Shown: one piece after another, positions 11,711 through 55,227 of the stretch
How positions within the stretch are numbered: the first letter of the stretch is position 1
Layout: each line of letters opens with the position of its first letter
Virus record (IMG/VR): IMGVR_UViG_3300034073_001024
Span: 1 to 55,227 of that record
DNA length: 55,227 bases
Direction: 5' to 3' (one strand)
Source of the DNA: a virus
Position numbers and translations under genes: made by a program
The notes under the pieces: model-generated
Database searches by the model: none
Told to the model about the DNA's origin: nothing
The model's input: only the letters and a program-made list of their open reading frames with translations

Positions 11711-14700
11711 CGATGGCGGCGATCTACGGCTCTGGCGGTGGCGGTGGCAAAGCGGGTGGCGGCGGCCAGGCGCGGACACCGCGTGTTCGTGATGACAACC
11801 TTGACTCAAGGCAATACGCAAAAGTCCTTGACCTAATCTGTGAAGGTGAAATTCAAGGATTGAAAGATGGCCTGAAGTCAATCTTTCTTGACGACACACC
11901 GCTGCAAAATGCAGATGGATCGTTCAACTTTCAAGGCGTGTCAGTTGACACGAGGACCGGCACGCAAAATCAGTCGTACATTCCGGGGTTTGATAGCGTT
12001 GAAGACATCCGCCCTGTTGGTGTTACCGTCAACCGTGAAGCGCCGGTAACGCGCACGATCACAGATAGCAATGTGGATGCTGTTAGCGTCACCATCGGCG
12101 TGCCGCAACTACAGCAGCAAGAGGCAAAGACTGGTGACATCGGCGGCTTCAATTTTGAATTCAGGGTTGAGGTGCAATATAACGGTGGTGGCTTCAACAC
12201 CGTATTGCAGCAGACGATCAAGGGTCGCACGGCTGATTTATTTCAGCGGTCGTTTCTGATCAACCTTGACGGACCTGCGCCGTATGACATTCGCCTGGTG
12301 AGGCTATCACCGGATGATGATGAATACACCGGAAATAAGTACAGCAGTCGTGTTAGTACATTTAACTGGACAAGTTACACGGAGATCACATACGCAAAGC
12401 TGCGCTACCCAAATAGCGCACTGGTTGCGTTGCGTGTTGATGCAGAACAGTTCAATTCAATTCCATCACGCGCATATCACATCCGTGGCGCAAAAGTACG
12501 CATACCAAACAATGCAACCGTTGATCAAGCCAACGGCCGATTGATCTATAACGGCATTTGGAATGGTGGATTCACGGCTGCGCAATGGTGCAGTGATCCT
12601 GCATGGATCTTATGGGATCTACTGATCAGTGCACGCTATGGACTGGGCGATCACATCCAAGAATCGCAACTGGATAAGTGGGCATTCTTTTCTGCTAGTC
12701 GATACTGCTCTGAACTTGTACCGAATGGTTTTGGCGGATTAGAACCGCGCTTCTCTTGTAACGTCAACATTCAGACGGCAGAAGAAGCGTACAAGCTGAT
12801 CAATGATATGTGTTCAGTGTTCCGGGCGATGCCGTTTTGGAGCACTGGTGCATTAACGATCAGCCAAGATAAACCAGCGGATACAAGTTATCTGTTTACG
12901 CTGGCCAATGTCACAGAGGAAGGTTTCAGCTATCAAGGAGCTAGCCGCAAGACGCGCCCTACGGTTTGCGTTGTTAGTTACCTCGATCTCAATACGCGCG
13001 ACACCGCCTACGAGGTAGTTGAAGATCAAGAGGGTATTCAGAAATACGGCGTTATCAAGACCGAGATAGACGCCTTTGCCTGCACCAGCCAAGGCCAAGC
13101 GCATCGCATCGGCGAATGGCTGCTGTATTCAGAGCGGTACGAAAGTGAAGTAATCAGCTTCACTGCATCCATTGATGCTGGTGTAATCGTCAGGCCTGGG
13201 CAGATTATTGAAGTTGCTGATCCCGTAAAAGCTGGCGCACGCCGTGGTGGAAGAATCAGCGCTGCCACTGATACAACCATAACGGTAGATAATACTGATG
13301 GCCTTGTAGCAAGCAATGCACAGCTGTCGGTGATCATGCCGAACGGTAGCGTCGAGACACGTAATATCAGCGCCATCAGCGGCAATCAGATTACGGTAAG
13401 CGCTGCGTTTTCATTTGTTCCAAATGTTAATAGCGTTTGGGTTTACCAAACTAGCAATATCCAAACATCAACATGGCGTGTCCTTACGGTACAAGAGCAA
13501 GACGGGACCAACTATGCAATCAGCGCCATTGGCTACAATGCTAGCAAATACGACTACATCGAGCGCGGCGTAGCACTGCAGCAGCGTGATATTACTGACC
13601 TGAACATCTTGCCGCCGCCGCCGTCTAATTTAACGGCAGAGGAAGTTTTATATGACGCTGGCAATGTTGCACGCGCCAAGCTACTGACCAGCTGGCGGCA
13701 GGTGCCTAGTGTTACGTCGTATCGCATTGAATGGCGCAAGGATGACAACAACTGGACAACAGTAACGCAGTCTAGGCCGGACTTTGAGATTCTTGATACT
13801 ACGCCAGGCGTCTACGAAATTAGAGTGTTCAGCCTTAGCGCATTCTTAAGGTCATCAACGGATGCGGCAATCGTTACTGTTCAGACATTTGGCAAGACAG
13901 CGCCACCCGCTACGCCAACAGGCATCAGCATTATCCCCAATAGCGAAACAACTGCAATCCTGAGCTGGGATCGCAGCGAAGAACTTGATGTGATCATTGG
14001 CGGCAGGGTATTGATTCGCCATAGCGTGCAAACTGTTGGTGCGTTGTGGCATGAAAGCCAAGATATTGTTGCGGCCGCCGCTGGATCTCAAACGCAAAAG
14101 CAAGTGCCATTGCTTGAAGGCACGTATCTGATCAAGTTTGAAGATGACAGCGGCAACCGCTCTGCGGTGCCTGCAACAGCTGTTATTGACCTGCCAACAC
14201 CACAGCCGAGACTATTGGTGCGCAGCTACCGCGAAGATCAGGAATCGCCGCCATTTTCGGGCAATGTTACCAATATGGTCTATAGCCCAGTGCTAGATGG
14301 CTTGATCCTTGCGCTTGGCACTCCGGTTGATAGCTTGCCGGGGCTTTGGGATGACCTTGCTACAGACGGTGACTGGGATGGCCTAAGCAGTAGTCTCGGC
14401 AGTGGTGAATATGAATTCGGCAGCACCTATGACCTTGGCGGTGTCTTTGACCTAAACCTACGCCGCTACTTTGTGACGCGGCCGTACCTTGTCAGTGACT
14501 TGTGGGACGACAGGCAAGGTTTAATTGATGATTGGACAAGTGATATTGATGGCGACGCACCGGATCAAGTTAATGCAGTGCTGTATGTGCGTTCAACCAA
14601 TGATGACCCAGGTGTGTCGCCAACATGGAGCGAATGGCGCGAATTTGCAAATGCCATCACGCGCGGTCGTGCATTCCAGTTCAAAACCATCGCCACTAGC

Positions 14701-31108: not shown

Positions 31109-31302
31109 TCACGCCTCCTGCTGCGGTTTGGTGAGCAAGTGCCATAGCCATATCCATTGCCATATCCATCGCCATAGCCATCGCCATCGCCATCGCCATT
31201 GCCATCGCCATAGCCATCGCCATAGCCATTGCCATATCCATCGCCATAGCCATAGCCATAGCCATCGCCATAGCCATCGCCCACTGGCATCATGATATTC
31301 AT
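31105..31302 (-). CDS. Gly-Tyr/Asp/Asn dipeptide repeat protein
   Basis: 65 aa. After NIMMPV the chain is about 23 consecutive G-x dipeptides with x = Tyr, Asp or Asn, then TCSPNRSRRRE. Start and stop each overlap neighbours as ATGA, the strongest evidence that this frame is the coding one. It could be a flexible, aromatic, acidic linker or a weak Ca2+ binder. I know of no family. It lies between a DUF6948-like gene and a membrane peptide/RlpA pair, hinting at an envelope role. Confidence 0.65.
   Translation of the reverse strand: MNIMMPVGDGYGDGYGYGYGDGYGNGYGDGYGDGNGDGDGDGYGDGYGNGYGYGTCSPNRSRRRE
31141..31280. repeat. Hexanucleotide microsatellite (GCCATA/GCCATC)
   Basis: About 23 units of six bases with sequence GCCAT(A/C/T) or TCCAT(C/T) on the plus strand. 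On the minus strand each unit encodes Gly plus Tyr, Asp or Asn. Copy changes keep the frame, so length variation between isolates is expected. Confidence 0.9.
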
Positions 31303-41104: not shown

Positions 41105-41266
41105 ATGGAGCTAGCGCACCCGTTATCGGTTCAGTTCACACCAGAGCAGCTGGCATGGCTGGACAGTCGCCGCGTCGCCGGCTTGTCGCGTAGTGCCGTC
41201 TTGCGCCTTGTAGTCGAGGAGGCCATGCGCCACGAGCAAGCGGCGACGCGGAGCGTCAAGCGATGA
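41105..41266 (+). CDS. Small ribbon-helix-helix protein
   Basis: 53 aa: ELAHPLSVQFTPEQLAWLDS, RRVAGLSRSAVLRLVVEEAM. The strand plus two helices with a GLSRSAVLR turn match RHH repressors of Arc/CopG type. Its ATG lies 24 bases after a palindrome in the divergent promoter, so autoregulation and control of the early genes is likely. Its stop overlaps the primase start (ATGA). Confidence 0.7.
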   Translation: MELAHPLSVQFTPEQLAWLDSRRVAGLSRSAVLRLVVEEAMRHEQAATRSVKR

Positions 41267-43782
41267 GCGACATCAAAGACCTCGCCCGCGGCAAGTGGCC
41301 TGATCTGCTGGCGCAGCTGGGTGGCCTGACCGCAGAGCAGCTGACCGACACCCACCAGCCGTGCCCGTGTTGTGGTGGCACCGACCGTTACCGCTTTGAT
41401 GACATCGACGGCAGCGGCTCTTGGTACTGCAATCAATGCGGCGGGAAGGATGGCGCCGGCGGTGGTGGCACCGGCATGGATCTGCTGATGCGCCGCAATG
41501 GCTGGAGTTTTGCCGAGGCTGCTAAGCGGGTTGAGCAGCACCTTGGTATTGCCAGGCCGAAACCAGCTCCACCGCTGCCGCGCGGCAAGCAGTTTTGGCA
41601 ATACAGCAGTGACTTCTATGTTGTCCGCAAAGACAAGCCGGACGGAGACAAAGACATCCTCCCACTTTGGTGGGATGGCAGCAGCTGGAAGTGGAAGGCG
41701 CCGCCTGCGCCGCGTCCGTTGTACGGCAAGCGTCAGCTGACGCTCAAGCCCAATGCGCCGGTGCTGGTGGTTGAAGGCGAAAAGGCCGCTGATGCTGCCG
41801 CATCGCTGTTCCCGCAGGCAGTGGTGATCACATGGCCCAGTGGTTGCAAGGCAGCCGGCAAAGCTGACTGGTCGCCGTTGGCCGGGAGGAAGGTAACCCT
41901 ATGGCCTGATGCGGATGCTGTTGGCCGTGATGCAATGGCCAAGCTGGCCATCCGCTTGCTCAAACTTGGTGCTACGCAGGTGCGGATCGTGCAGCCGCCA
42001 GCTGATGTGCCCGAAGGCTGGGATCTAGCCGATGCCACATGGTCACCGGCCGAAGCTGCCGCCTACCTGCGCGCCAATCGCTCCGCACCAATCGAGCTGC
42101 CGGCGCTTGCGGCGCCTGATACCGAGTCCGACCGCGATCCAATACCGGAGCCGGCGCCGCTGCCAAAGCAAGGCGAAGCCTTTACGTGCCTTGGCTTTGA
42201 CAATGACGCCTACTTCTACCAGCCCAACAGCACCGGCCAGGTGATCCGGCTCGGTCGCGCCAGTCACACCGGCACCAACCTATGCGCCATTGCGCCAATC
42301 GAATACTGGCAGGCGCTCTACCCATCCAGGACCGGCACCGACTGGACATCAGCGGCATCCAGCTTGTTTGAGCTGCAGTCCCGCATCGGCATCTACGATC
42401 CGCATCGCATTCGCGGCCGCGGCGCATGGCGCGATCAAGGTCAGTCCGTACTGCACCTCGGTGATCGACTCATCATCGGCGACCGCTCCGTACCATCATC
42501 TACCGGCATTGACGGCAGCGCTTACATCTATCAGCGTCTTGCGCGCTTGACCGGGCCAGGTACAGCAAAGCCGCTCAGCCGTGACGACGCCTACATCCTT
42601 TGCGGTATCGCCGAGCGCTTCCGCTGGGAAGTGCCCGTATCAGGACTGTTGCTTGCTGGCTGGGTTGTGCTCGCGCCGGTCTGCGGTGCACTCGACTGGC
42701 GGCCGCATATCTGGATCACAGCCGGCGCCGGTTCCGGCAAATCCGCCATCCTTGAGCGCTACATCGCGCCATTGCTCGGTGACTTGTCGTTGCACGTATC
42801 CGGCAACACTTCAGAAGCTGGTCTCCGCCAGACGTTACGGGCCGATGCGCTGCCGGTGGTATTTGATGAGGCTGAATCCAACGAAAAGACCGATCAGCAG
42901 CGGATGCAGAACGTACTATCCCTAGCACGTGTCGCCAGTAGTGAATCACGCGCGCAAACAATCAAAGGCAGCGCCGATGGTGACGCACAGCGTTATGCCA
43001 TCCGAAGCATGTTTTGCATGTCGTCGATTGCAACAGCACTCAAGCAAGGTGCCGACAAATCACGTTTTGCGCAGCTCACATTACGCAATCCAGGAGATAT
43101 ACCAAAGGCGGAACGCATCGCCCATTGGGAACAGCTAGACCGTGATCTTGATCGCTACGTCACTGATCGCGTCGGGCAGCGATTGCAGGCGCGGACTGTA
43201 GCGATGATTCCAACAATACGCGAGTCAATTAAAGTCTTCACCCGTGCAGCTGCTGAAATCTTTGATAGCCAACGCCTTGGCGATCAATACGGCGCACTCC
43301 TCGGCGGCGCGTGGTCTTTGTACTCCGATGATGTAGCAACCCGCGATGAAGCGTATCAGCTGATTGAGCAGAACAGCTGGGAATCGTATTCGCAATCCAC
43401 TGAGTTGCCGGATGAAAAACGGTGTATTCAGATGATCCTTCAGCATCAAGTGCGCGTTGAATCTGATGATCGTATCTGCACCAGAACGCTTGGCGAATTG
43501 GTAGAGATCGCCGCATCGCGTCGCGTTGACCGTGAAGTGACTGCCACGCAGGCGCAAGACAGCATGTCTCGGGTTGGTCTCAAGGTGGACAACCAGCGGC
43601 AAGCGTTGCTGGTAAGCAACACCGCAGGCGCTATCGCCGCCATCCTTCGCGATACCGCATGGGCGCAGTGCTGGGCAACAGTGCTCGCGAGGCTGCCAGG
43701 TGCGCAGCGTGTCGGCTCCACTCGATTCAGTGGCGCTGGCACCGTCAGCCGCGCCATAGCGTTACAGATCGATGGTTTGTAA
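41263..43782 (+). CDS. Primase-helicase (zinc finger, TOPRIM, SF3/DUF927-like)
   Basis: 839 aa. N-terminal primase zinc finger (CPCCGGTDRYRFDDIDGSGS, WYCNQCGG), then TOPRIM (VLVVEGEKAADAAA...TLWPDADAVGRDA, with E and DxD). The C-terminal half (about 330-620) is an ATPase with Walker A ITAGAGSGKSAILERY and Walker B-like LPVVFDEAESNEK. It primes and unwinds phage DNA. The last codons hold the first iterons of the probable origin, so gene and origin form one replicon module. Confidence 0.9.
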   Translation: MSDIKDLARGKWPDLLAQLGGLTAEQLTDTHQPCPCCGGTDRYRFDDIDGSGSWYCNQCGGKDGAGGGGTGMDLLMRRNGWSFAEAAKRVEQHLGIARPKPAPPLPRGKQFWQYSSDFYVVRKDKPDGDKDILPLWWDGSSWKWKAPPAPRPLYGKRQLTLKPNAPVLVVEGEKAADAAASLFPQAVVITWPSGCKAAGKADWSPLAGRKVTLWPDADAVGRDAMAKLAIRLLKLGATQVRIVQPPADVPEGWDLADATWSPAEAAAYLRANRSAPIELPALAAPDTESDRDPIPEPAPLPKQGEAFTCLGFDNDAYFYQPNSTGQVIRLGRASHTGTNLCAIAPIEYWQALYPSRTGTDWTSAASSLFELQSRIGIYDPHRIRGRGAWRDQGQSVLHLGDRLIIGDRSVPSSTGIDGSAYIYQRLARLTGPGTAKPLSRDDAYILCGIAERFRWEVPVSGLLLAGWVVLAPVCGALDWRPHIWITAGAGSGKSAILERYIAPLLGDLSLHVSGNTSEAGLRQTLRADALPVVFDEAESNEKTDQQRMQNVLSLARVASSESRAQTIKGSADGDAQRYAIRSMFCMSSIATALKQGADKSRFAQLTLRNPGDIPKAERIAHWEQLDRDLDRYVTDRVGQRLQARTVAMIPTIRESIKVFTRAAAEIFDSQRLGDQYGALLGGAWSLYSDDVATRDEAYQLIEQNSWESYSQSTELPDEKRCIQMILQHQVRVESDDRICTRTLGELVEIAASRRVDREVTATQAQDSMSRVGLKVDNQRQALLVSNTAGAIAAILRDTAWAQCWATVLARLPGAQRVGSTRFSGAGTVSRAIALQIDGL

Positions 43783-44052
43783 CGCTTCGCCAGAGGTGCG
43801 TTACAGGGCAAACCCACTGCGCCGCAGCACTTGTAACGGTTCAGGGGCTTGTAACGCTTTTCAGATATATATCCCCCTAGAGATAAGGAGCACTACCTAC
43901 CCACTTACTAAGGTTGCAAGGGTAGGCCCCAATCTTTTATATATATTTCTCTGTTACATGATACAAACAACAAGACAGGCCCTGAGACTGCCTGCGCTGG
44001 TGTGGATCTCGGCGTAACGCTTTTTGTAACGCTCCGGCCCCAAACCGTTACA
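43759..44052. other. Iteron array with AT-rich segment: candidate replication origin
   Basis: Nine copies of TGTAACGC or close variants occur in both orientations, at 43759, 43778, 43798, 43832, 43850, 43952, 44013, 44025 and 44045. Between them lie AT-rich segments (GATATATATCC at 43864, CTTTTATATATATTTC at 43934) suited to unwinding. The 315-base stretch 43783-44098 has no gene. The location right after the primase-helicase and before the sliding clamp fits an origin; binding protein unknown. Confidence 0.65.
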
Positions 44053-44098
44053 ACCCAGTCCACCACTAGAAACAGCACCGTTGCACCGCGATTCTCAA

Positions 44099-44407
44099 AT
44101 GAGACTCACCAATCACGCACGAGACCGATTCATCCGCGAGATGGAGGACCGGCTGACGCCGGACCTCCTGTACCATTGCTTCACCGGTGAAGGCGATGCC
44201 AATCGCCTCGCTCGTGTCGCTTCACTCGATCACGTACTGCAATCGGCACTACTTGAGAAGGTGGAACGGCAATGGCCTGAAAGGCTGCAATCCATCGCCG
44301 CCGAGCGTCGCGCCGAATGGCTGCGCTCCAAGGCCATCACATCTGCGTACGTGACCCAATGCCTGAAATCAAGTTCAACCTCACCGACGACCAGCTGGCG
44401 CACCTGA
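44099..44407 (+). CDS. Unknown early/replication-region protein (102 aa)
   Basis: From ATG 44099: RLTNHARDRFIREMEDRLTP, LYHCFTGEGDANRLARVASL, LLEKVERQWPERLQSIAAER. Helical and charged. Codon pattern is good up to about residue 85; the last part overlaps the next gene. No family recognised. Confidence 0.6.
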   Translation: MRLTNHARDRFIREMEDRLTPDLLYHCFTGEGDANRLARVASLDHVLQSALLEKVERQWPERLQSIAAERRAEWLRSKAITSAYVTQCLKSSSTSPTTSWRT

Positions 44408-44649
44408 ACCAGCAGGCTGCTGCCGCTGGCATCCCACGCGCGCACCTGATCCGTGATCGCGCATTGGCGCCCGCTGCTGGTGTTGCAAGGTTGCGGACGG
44501 TTGAGTATCATTCCCTCGTTGCTGATGCCTGCCGCTTCATGCGCGGCGACCTCTCGCGGCAACACGTGGAAACACTCGTCGCTTATGTCCTCACCCAACT
44601 CGACAAGCGTCAGCGTGAAGCAGCAGCCGATCGTAACCCGGTTGCATGA
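44359..44649 (+). CDS. RHH-like small protein (96 aa)
   Basis: From ATG 44359: PEIKFNLTDDQLAHLNQQAA, AGIPRAHLIRDRALA is a ribbon-helix-helix-like start, followed by LVADACRFMRGDLSRQHVET and LVAYVLTQLDKR. Possible DNA-binding regulator near the origin. Confidence 0.6.
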   Translation: MPEIKFNLTDDQLAHLNQQAAAAGIPRAHLIRDRALAPAAGVARLRTVEYHSLVADACRFMRGDLSRQHVETLVAYVLTQLDKRQREAAADRNPVA

Positions 44650-44797
44650 CACGCTGGAGCAGGCTGCGGCCTATGCCGCTGCCATTGCAGACAATGCAAC
44701 CGATGACCAGCAACCGATACCACTGGAGCTGGTTGAAGACTTCTCATCTCAATGCTCTGATCTGATCGCTGTCCTCGCCTCTGTCGCCACACGATGA
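44585..44797 (+). CDS. Unknown small protein before clamp (70 aa)
   Basis: Good protein-like part: IVTRLHDTLEQAAAYAAAIA, LELVEDFSSQCSDLIAVLAS. The stop overlaps the clamp start (ATGA). The true start may lie inside the shown frame, since the first residues overlap the upstream gene. Confidence 0.5.
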   Translation: MSSPNSTSVSVKQQPIVTRLHDTLEQAAAYAAAIADNATDDQQPIPLELVEDFSSQCSDLIAVLASVATR

Positions 44798-45837
44798 AAT
44801 TCACCACCTGCACCGCTGACCTCGACCATGCGCTGCGTGCTATTGCGCCGGCCATTGGTGTGCGCAGCTCGCATCCGATCCTGGATTGCTGCTTGATCCA
44901 AGCCAACGCCGATGGCACTGCTGTGGTTACCGGCTTCAACCTGGACCTTGGCATCACCTGCACCATCCCGGCTACTGTCACCACTGCCGGCGCCGTAGCG
45001 CTGCCGTATCGCCTGCTGGCTGGCCTCGTGAGCCGACTGGAGGGCGATGAGGCTGTAACCCTCGCAGATGGCGCCCTGAGCGCTTCCAGCGGCTCCTACA
45101 GCCTCGCAGCGCAGTCAGCCGAGGATTACCCCGCTCTGCCGGCTGTAGAGGCCGCAGAGACGCAACTGGAGCTGGCTGGTGCTGTACGTGCTTGCATGGT
45201 GGCTGTCAGCACCGACGCGGCAAAGCAGATGCTCACCGGCATCCACCTCGGCGATGGTCACCTGAGCGCAACTGATGGCCACAGGCTGATGCGTTGCGCT
45301 GTTGACCTGCCGGATGGGTTGGCCATGACGCTGCCGGCCACCACCATGAAGCTGCTGGCGGATCACAGCTGCAGCGTGGTAGCAGCCAAAGGTCAAGCCG
45401 TGATCACCACCGATGAAGGCATCCGCGTTTACAGCCGCGTGCTCGATGGCACCTACCCGAACGTGGCGCAGCTGATCCCAGCCAGCTTTGAGCACACGAT
45501 GATCTTCAACCGGCACCGGCTGACGCGGGCGCTGGAGCGGGTTGCCATCATCGCAGAGGCCACCAACGGCGTGGTGAAGCTGACCGCAGCGGATGGGAAG
45601 CTCACTATCACCGCCGAAGCTGATGCCAATAATGGCCGCGAGTCGTTGGCATACGATGGCACCGGCAATGGCATGTGGGCATTCAATGTGGCCTACTTGC
45701 TTGATGGACTCAAGGCATTCCGCTCGGCGGAGTCGGTTGAGCTGAACTGCAATGCGGCTACTACGCCGGTGGTATTGCGGCCCGCGGGTGACGATGGGCG
45801 CACCTACCTCGTGATGCCCGTGCAAGTGCGCAGCTAA
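44794..45837 (+). CDS. dnaN: DNA polymerase III sliding clamp (beta subunit)
   Basis: 347 aa, slightly shorter than bacterial clamps. Three-fold repeated clamp domains are recognisable: KFTTCTADLDHALRAIAPAI, VSTDAAKQMLTGIHL...LSATDGHRLMRCAVD, and FNRHRLTRALERVAIIAEAT. The C-terminus (YLVMPVQVRS) keeps the shape of the partner-binding pocket (VMPM in bacteria). No phage polymerase is present, so the clamp must work with host Pol III or replace the host clamp. Confidence 0.93.
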   Translation: MKFTTCTADLDHALRAIAPAIGVRSSHPILDCCLIQANADGTAVVTGFNLDLGITCTIPATVTTAGAVALPYRLLAGLVSRLEGDEAVTLADGALSASSGSYSLAAQSAEDYPALPAVEAAETQLELAGAVRACMVAVSTDAAKQMLTGIHLGDGHLSATDGHRLMRCAVDLPDGLAMTLPATTMKLLADHSCSVVAAKGQAVITTDEGIRVYSRVLDGTYPNVAQLIPASFEHTMIFNRHRLTRALERVAIIAEATNGVVKLTAADGKLTITAEADANNGRESLAYDGTGNGMWAFNVAYLLDGLKAFRSAESVELNCNAATTPVVLRPAGDDGRTYLVMPVQVRS

Positions 45838-55074: not shown

Positions 55075-55149
55075 CACCCAGTCCGAGCCAATGGATAGGA
55101 CGGCTTCTGCTGCTGCAGGGCGATGCGGGTTCGATTCCCGCCTGGGTGC
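55075..55149 (+). tRNA. Degenerate tRNA-Arg(UCU)-like element across the circle junction
   Basis: 75 bases, the length of a tRNA without CCA. The acceptor stem is perfect (CACCCAG/CTGGGTG) and the T arm is perfect (GCGGG-TTCGATT-CCCGC) and directly adjoins it. The D region holds the tRNA-Arg-like AATGGATAGGAC. The anticodon stem does not pair properly around CTTCTGC, and the D stem is disturbed. It may be a decayed tRNA, a tRNA mimic, or a relic attachment site. No CCA is encoded. Confidence 0.4.
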
Positions 55150-55227
55150 TGCTTAGACTAGCGATATGACGATCGCCGATGACCTAGAGGCATTTTTCAG
55201 CTTTGATGCTGTGACGGTGACGAATGG
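55101..55227. repeat. Terminal direct repeat, copy 2
   Basis: Identical to bases 1-127. It shows that 55100 joins 1 in the circle. The partial gene at 55166-55227 is the same as the gene beginning at 66. Confidence 0.95.

Follow-up and report, generated by a model that had tools for sequence, protein, structure and literature searches.

A cluster of 7-bp repeats at the 3′ end of a phage primase-helicase gene (positions 43760-44085 of the window, i.e., the whole 55,227-nucleotide stretch analysed) is very probably, at about 0.92 by our estimate, an iteron-type replication origin that would be read by the C-terminal domain of the adjoining protein. The case is built from sequence comparison: relatives keep the cluster and its layout and change the repeated word, residue 821 of the protein changes in step with one base of that word, and in one natural pair of phages the C-terminal domain and the repeats have been exchanged together. 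To our knowledge, few phage origins have been located from sequence, and little is known of how iteron initiators acquire a different specificity; with many natural words and one residue coupled to them, the latter question becomes directly testable. If the reading is correct, the origins of many uncultured phages and proviruses could be read from their sequences. A search of a library of open-access papers returned no earlier report of this origin or of a one-residue-to-one-base rule.

In the proposed mechanism, the origin would consist of 7-bp iterons in both orientations that flank an AT-rich centre, lying 3′ of the primase-helicase gene and partly overlapping it. The C-terminal domain would bind the iterons, with helicase rings assembling on either side and the AT-rich centre being opened. 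Residue 821, in a C-terminal β-hairpin, would contact base pair 6, with Arg accompanying C:G, probably by way of the guanine on the other strand. Because the DNA-binding domain adjoins the origin, both could be exchanged as one specificity cassette, and close relatives would thus come to differ in origin type. Binding, ring assembly, melting, and origin activity, as well as the contact made by residue 821 itself, are what we infer from the comparisons below.

The repeat cluster and its surroundings

The window carries terminase and tail genes, and its first 127 bp recur at its end as a direct terminal repeat (1-127 and 55101-55227), so that the record is probably complete, with a genome of 55,100 bp. 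The features under discussion are the following, with the basis of each in brackets.

41105-41266: small ribbon-helix-helix (RHH)-like gene (sequence pattern)
41263-43782, plus strand: primase-helicase, 839 aa, proposed initiator (Pfam and fold matches)
43411-43779, plus strand: C-terminal domain, residues ~717-839, proposed iteron reader (model, cassette exchange)
43717-43719, plus strand: codon 819 (Ser), which goes with base 4 among Tyr, Trp, and His proteins (columns of the representatives)
43723-43725, plus strand: codon 821 (Arg), proposed specificity residue for base 6 (column screen, leave-one-out)
43760-43766, plus strand: iteron CGTTACA, overlapping the gene (exact word)
43778-43784, minus strand: iteron CGTTACA, overlapping the stop codon (exact word)
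43799-43805, plus strand: iteron CGTTACA (exact word)
43832-43838, minus strand: iteron CGTTACA (exact word)
43850-43856, minus strand: iteron CGTTACA (exact word)
43861-43950, no strand: AT-rich centre with two TATATATA runs, proposed unwinding element (A+T by 40-bp block)
43952-43958, plus strand: iteron variant TGTTACA (one mismatch)
44013-44019, minus strand: iteron variant CGTTACG (one mismatch)
44025-44031, minus strand: iteron CGTTACA (exact word)
44046-44052, plus strand: iteron CGTTACA (exact word)
44079-44085, plus strand: iteron variant CGTTGCA, at which locus L007 has an exact CGTTACA (one mismatch)
44359-44649, plus strand: small RHH-like gene (sequence pattern only)
44794-45837, plus strand: phage-encoded DNA polymerase III β clamp (Pfam DNA_pol3_beta domains, E 1e-19)

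Counted as an exact word, CGTTACA (TGTAACG on the other strand) occurs eight times in the 55 kb window, seven of them within 43760-44052 and the eighth at 12757. The sequence-only reading had reported at least nine copies in 295 bases, a figure reached only with one mismatch allowed, which gives ten copies over 43760-44085 (adding TGTTACA at 43952, CGTTACG at 44013, and CGTTGCA at 44079). The clustering itself stood up well: the densest 300 bp hold seven copies, against a maximum of two in 60 dinucleotide-preserving shuffles, where the maximum was at most one in 57 (exactly one in 56) and two in the other three. The repeats do run in both orientations with TATATATA segments between them, as had been noticed, and five exact copies lie to the left of the AT-rich centre (43861-43950), with three near and two exact copies to its right. 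Three successive 40-bp blocks at the centre have A+T fractions of 0.60, 0.53, and 0.70, compared with 0.35-0.47 in other blocks. The window's iterons are sparser than the sets found in relatives; in part of the left half, they follow one another at intervals of about 18-21 bp. The stretch had also been described as gene-free, which is only partly so, because the first iteron lies wholly and the second mostly inside the end of the primase-helicase gene (stop at 43782); the next plausible start is an ATG at 44099, which leaves a gap of ~316 bp after the gene.

Short G+C-rich spacers, some of them palindromic, separate the iteron groups (43812-43830 and 43975-44010); such spacers recur in several relatives despite the differing iteron word, some with GATCTCGG. 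Elsewhere in the window, CATCGCC repeats with steps that are multiples of 6 bp occupy 31167-31281, in or near a minus-strand ORF. Rfam gave no match, and a family search with the product of 44359-44649 was likewise without a match. The full-length β clamp gene close to the cluster has a counterpart in Synechococcus phage S-H1, where a β clamp adjoins the same module.

Cumulative GC skew, suggested earlier as a check on the origin, fits in the window, where its minimum lies 3.1 kb from the cluster; among 15 genomes of the family, however, no trend emerged, and only five have the minimum within 10% of genome length of the cluster (p 0.16). Across relatives, GC skew thus neither supports nor refutes an origin at this site.

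The primase-helicase and its C-terminal domain

The protein comprises a zinc ribbon, a TOPRIM primase, an AAA+ helicase of MCM/Cch-like type, and a putatively DNA-binding C-terminal domain; its Pfam matches are Zn_Ribbon_Prim and DUF6371, with Toprim matched in relatives. In a full-length AlphaFold2 model (mean pLDDT 84.9, pTM 0.52), the N-terminal part matches the TOPRIM domain of DnaG (4edg, Z 15.0). The top Foldseek match of the full model is SCCmec Cch (5dgk, E 1.2e-8), with 424 residues aligned over 306-839 (Z 14.5) in a loose overall fit (rmsd 8.4 Å). A sequence profile run against solved structures returned nothing useful, and 5dgk was not found by it at E ≤ 1.

Modelled alone, residues 685-839 reach a pLDDT of 87.6. 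The best VIA matches of the C-terminal domain are weak and include SaPIBov1 Rep (8tch, residues 452-552, Z 4.8), tied with the pCW3 relaxosome protein 5vfy (Z 4.8). Foldseek with this domain alone gave no match at E ≤ 0.001, and the P4 origin-binding domain was absent among the matches listed for it, an absence that carries no weight as evidence. In the full-length model, the C-terminal hairpin (815-835) includes residue 821 in one of its strands. Because the fold matches of the domain are weak, it is the coupling between residue and word, rather than the fold, that points to this hairpin as the likely reading element.

A conserved site with a changing word

The first set of relatives consisted of 73 loci in viral contigs together with phage S-H1 from GenBank, and DNA beyond the gene was available for 64 sequences, the window and S-H1 included. 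In nearly all 64, a repeat cluster directly follows the homologous gene, and its word differs between relatives; weak or mixed clusters were seen in L018-L020, L043, L044, L046, L052, L054-L056, and L078. Words were read by counting, because in many loci near-palindromes and dinucleotide runs led an expectation-maximization motif search astray, and word positions are numbered 1-7 on the window's CGTTACA. The main words are CGTTACA, CGTAACA, YGCAACA, CGTAAGA, CGTCAGA, CGTTAGA, CGTGAGA, YGTTAGG, CGTTCGG, and CGTAATG. In each of the 179 loci of the enlarged set (about 180 relatives), one word occurs five or more times at the same place, a threshold above the peak of four copies that shuffled regions attained in 3 of 200.

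Spacing is kept within a few base pairs in most classes despite the differing words. One example has three inverse copies ~9 bp apart at +46, +55, and +64, a pair, one inverse copy, and three forward copies. Counted from the stop codon, the sites of L026 (CGTAAGA) lie at -5, 4, 14, 46, 55, 64, 171, 180, 222, 234, 244, and 253, and those of L033 (CGTTAGA) at -6, 3, 15, 47, 56, 65, 150, 159, 202, 214, 224, and 233. The sequence-only reading had treated a lack of conservation of the repeats in related phages as grounds for giving up the origin; the word is indeed not kept and changes with the protein, but cluster position and spacing are kept, and that yardstick would wrongly have discarded the origin reading.

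Farther afield, Bdellovibrio phage phi1422, whose protein is ~33% identical, combines Arg at 821 with 11 copies of GGTAACA. Several other distant homologues (in the GenBank phages Dolphis, ST4, and Touem01, among others) have no convincing cluster adjoining the gene and so provide no test of the rule described below. In Acinetobacter phage Acjo_20 (L090), which has Arg at 821, GTTACA-type repeats lie upstream rather than downstream of the primase gene. The Synechococcus assembly HJ21-Hayes contains four copies of the module (L213, L214, L227, and L256), three with GTTACA and one with GTTCCA. Genes for terminase and sigma-70 region 2 occur close to two of these copies (L213 and L227); the four may be coexisting proviruses with distinct putative origins.

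Residue 821 and base 6 of the word

In an alignment of 53 proteins, the residue that precedes the invariant Phe822 varies with the word. Among 36 proteins less than 95% identical to one another, a screen of all 839 columns left residue 821 as the sole one dividing words with C at base 6 from the rest, being Arg when base 6 is C and His, Trp, or Tyr otherwise (base 6 called automatically). Over the 179 loci, which are related and thus do not count as independent events, Arg goes with C in 88/88, Trp with G in 38/38, Tyr with G in 30/32, and His with G or T in 15/15 (G in 11, T in 4). The rule, derived from the first loci, was next put to new loci that further scans supplied, 46 of which shared less than 90% identity with the first set and with one another. 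Of these, 40 fit, four have residues outside the rule, and two are misfits by automatic call, namely L276, where that call shifted the word frame by one base, and L178, whose cluster is a hybrid.

Two further tests were run on hand-curated data, with the weak-motif loci L089, L260, L261, L279, and L283 dropped from both. In leave-one-out prediction over 67 curated loci (L178, L262, and L276 dropped as well), residue 821 gave the correct call in 67/67, compared with 56/67 for the best other residue and 56/67 for the nearest relative. On a tree built from the helicase only, eight independent pairs differing in base 6 were compared: seven bore the rule out, none opposed it, and one showed no difference (sign test p 0.016); here L178 was kept, L262 was re-read as Arg to correct an alignment slip, and L276 was set to G to correct the word-frame error. 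The uncurated pair test on the first set gave 5/5 (p 0.0625). That one amino acid changes in step with the words suggests that the protein reads them directly.

L178 has Tyr, yet GTTACA (six copies) outnumbers GTGAGA (five). From ~0 to +260 after its gene, GTGAGA lies to the left of a TG/AG-rich centre and GTTACA to the right, and flank identity to L159 drops at the cluster centre; the locus is either a recombinant or an assembly chimera.

Base 4 follows a second residue in part of the family. Among the non-C representatives, Ser at 819 is confined to the six with G at base 4 and is present in every one of them; this association is suggestive only, because few lineages contribute to it. It does not hold in the Arg class, where the window itself has Ser819 with T at base 4. 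A search for a base-4 rule in the Arg class yielded no clear residue, partly because GTNAC words are nearly alike on both strands; word assignment does not fix the orientation of these near-palindromes, and base 6 is C either way.

Exchange of the C-terminal domain together with the repeats

L107 has Arg and CGTAACA, and L009 has Tyr and CGTAAGA/CGTCAGA. Their DNA is mostly ~77-91% identical along the gene (67% in one bin) and 74-91% identical beyond +300. Nearer the stop codon, between -300 and +300, it is only 44-73%; this interval corresponds to the C-terminal domain and the repeats, and a second comparison of the pair agreed. Only these two elements were thus exchanged between the phages. 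The small protein encoded next after the repeats is nearly identical in both and hence does not explain the differing words; by the same token, the downstream RHH protein, named by the sequence-only reading as a candidate binder, is unlikely to be the reader.

We consider it likely that these patterns reflect a code that is widespread in the family, in which residue 821 would set base 6 (Arg for C, Tyr or His for G, Trp for G followed by another G, and His also for T) and residue 819 would partly set base 4. Domain and origin would swap as one cassette, giving co-infecting relatives private origins.

Alternative explanations

Short inverted repeats are typical operators, and small RHH-like genes (41105-41266 and 44359-44649) flank the region, so the array might instead comprise sites for a small regulator that controls transcription of the replication genes. 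We regard this as very improbable: the downstream protein hardly differs between L107 and L009, whose repeats do, in several loci a different gene, or none of this kind, comes directly after the repeats, no sigma-70 promoter-like site was found in 43600-44200, and the word follows a residue of the helicase. Iteron arrays serve as centromeres too, and related modules occur in cyanobacterial genome assemblies, as would suit a plasmid-like prophage in which the cluster serves partition or incompatibility and the small proteins bind it as a centromere. This reading is harder still to credit, given that no partition ATPase was found among the searched genes adjoining the cluster and that the coupling is with the primase-helicase rather than a partition protein.

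A subtler alternative accepts an origin read by the C-terminal domain but has residue 821 hitchhike with the cassette while another residue makes the contact. The domain and the repeats do move together, and the related loci are not independent, which makes the idea worth weighing; we nevertheless think it unlikely. Distant lineages across the tree show the same pairing of residue and base, every other column does no better than the nearest relative (56/67), and seven of the eight independent pairs agree with none opposing. Moreover, Trp and GG are retained in L143 and L156 despite changes at base 4 and residue 819.

Comparison with known systems

An iteron origin adjoining the primase-helicase, as first proposed from the sequence, is well supported comparatively, but its framing as plasmid- or P4-like and not lambda-like needs correction. 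The lambda origin also uses iterons, inside its O gene, which weakens the contrast; the differences are that only two of the window's iterons overlap the gene end and that the window protein has its own helicase domain, whereas lambda relies on host DnaB loaded through P. The likeness to P4 holds in part: alpha is likewise a one-chain zinc-ribbon primase-helicase with repeats downstream of its gene (crr directly after alpha), the 8-bp repeats of P4 occur in both orientations, many ~9-10 bp apart, and there is short DNA similarity to the window in the zinc region. However, ori and crr of P4 lie ~4.5 kb apart, whereas the window has a single cluster plus the further copy at 12757, and the C-terminal sequences look unrelated.

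Covariation and modular swapping of a DNA-binding domain and its iteron origin are already known for RepA of the PLE satellites of Vibrio cholerae, as described in the portions of PMC8263062 considered here. PLE differs in having a distinct N-terminal RepA_N domain and three repeats of ~30 bp, and those portions of the paper contain no residue-to-base rule that we could find. SCCmec Cch (5dgk) shares the fold over the helicase and C-terminal domain but has no primase part, is only 12-13% identical, and gave no profile sequence match at E ≤ 1. DUF927 likewise had no match to the window protein at E ≤ 1 and was absent among the best 25 of 49 families matched over 51 family members.

The closest anatomical match of the cluster is the SaPI/PICI origin, which lies immediately 3′ of the initiator gene, with two sets of short iterons flanking an AT-rich region (PMC6092414). 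The window's cluster, a putative origin, similarly sits directly 3′ of the gene end at 43782, as in relatives, and its two iteron sets flank an AT-rich region. The window differs in being a tailed-phage genome with terminase and structural genes rather than a satellite, and in having a TOPRIM/zinc-ribbon primase fused to its helicase, where the primases of SaPIbov1 and SaPI5 are of the AEP type (PMC7581432); classification of the element as a PICI was rejected on these two grounds. The SaPI/PICI Rep recognizes its origin via its C-terminal domain (PMC7581432). For the window protein, the fold resembles Cch (Z 14.5) and, weakly, SaPIBov1 Rep (Z 4.8), and the coupling between residue 821 and the word argues for C-terminal recognition here as well.
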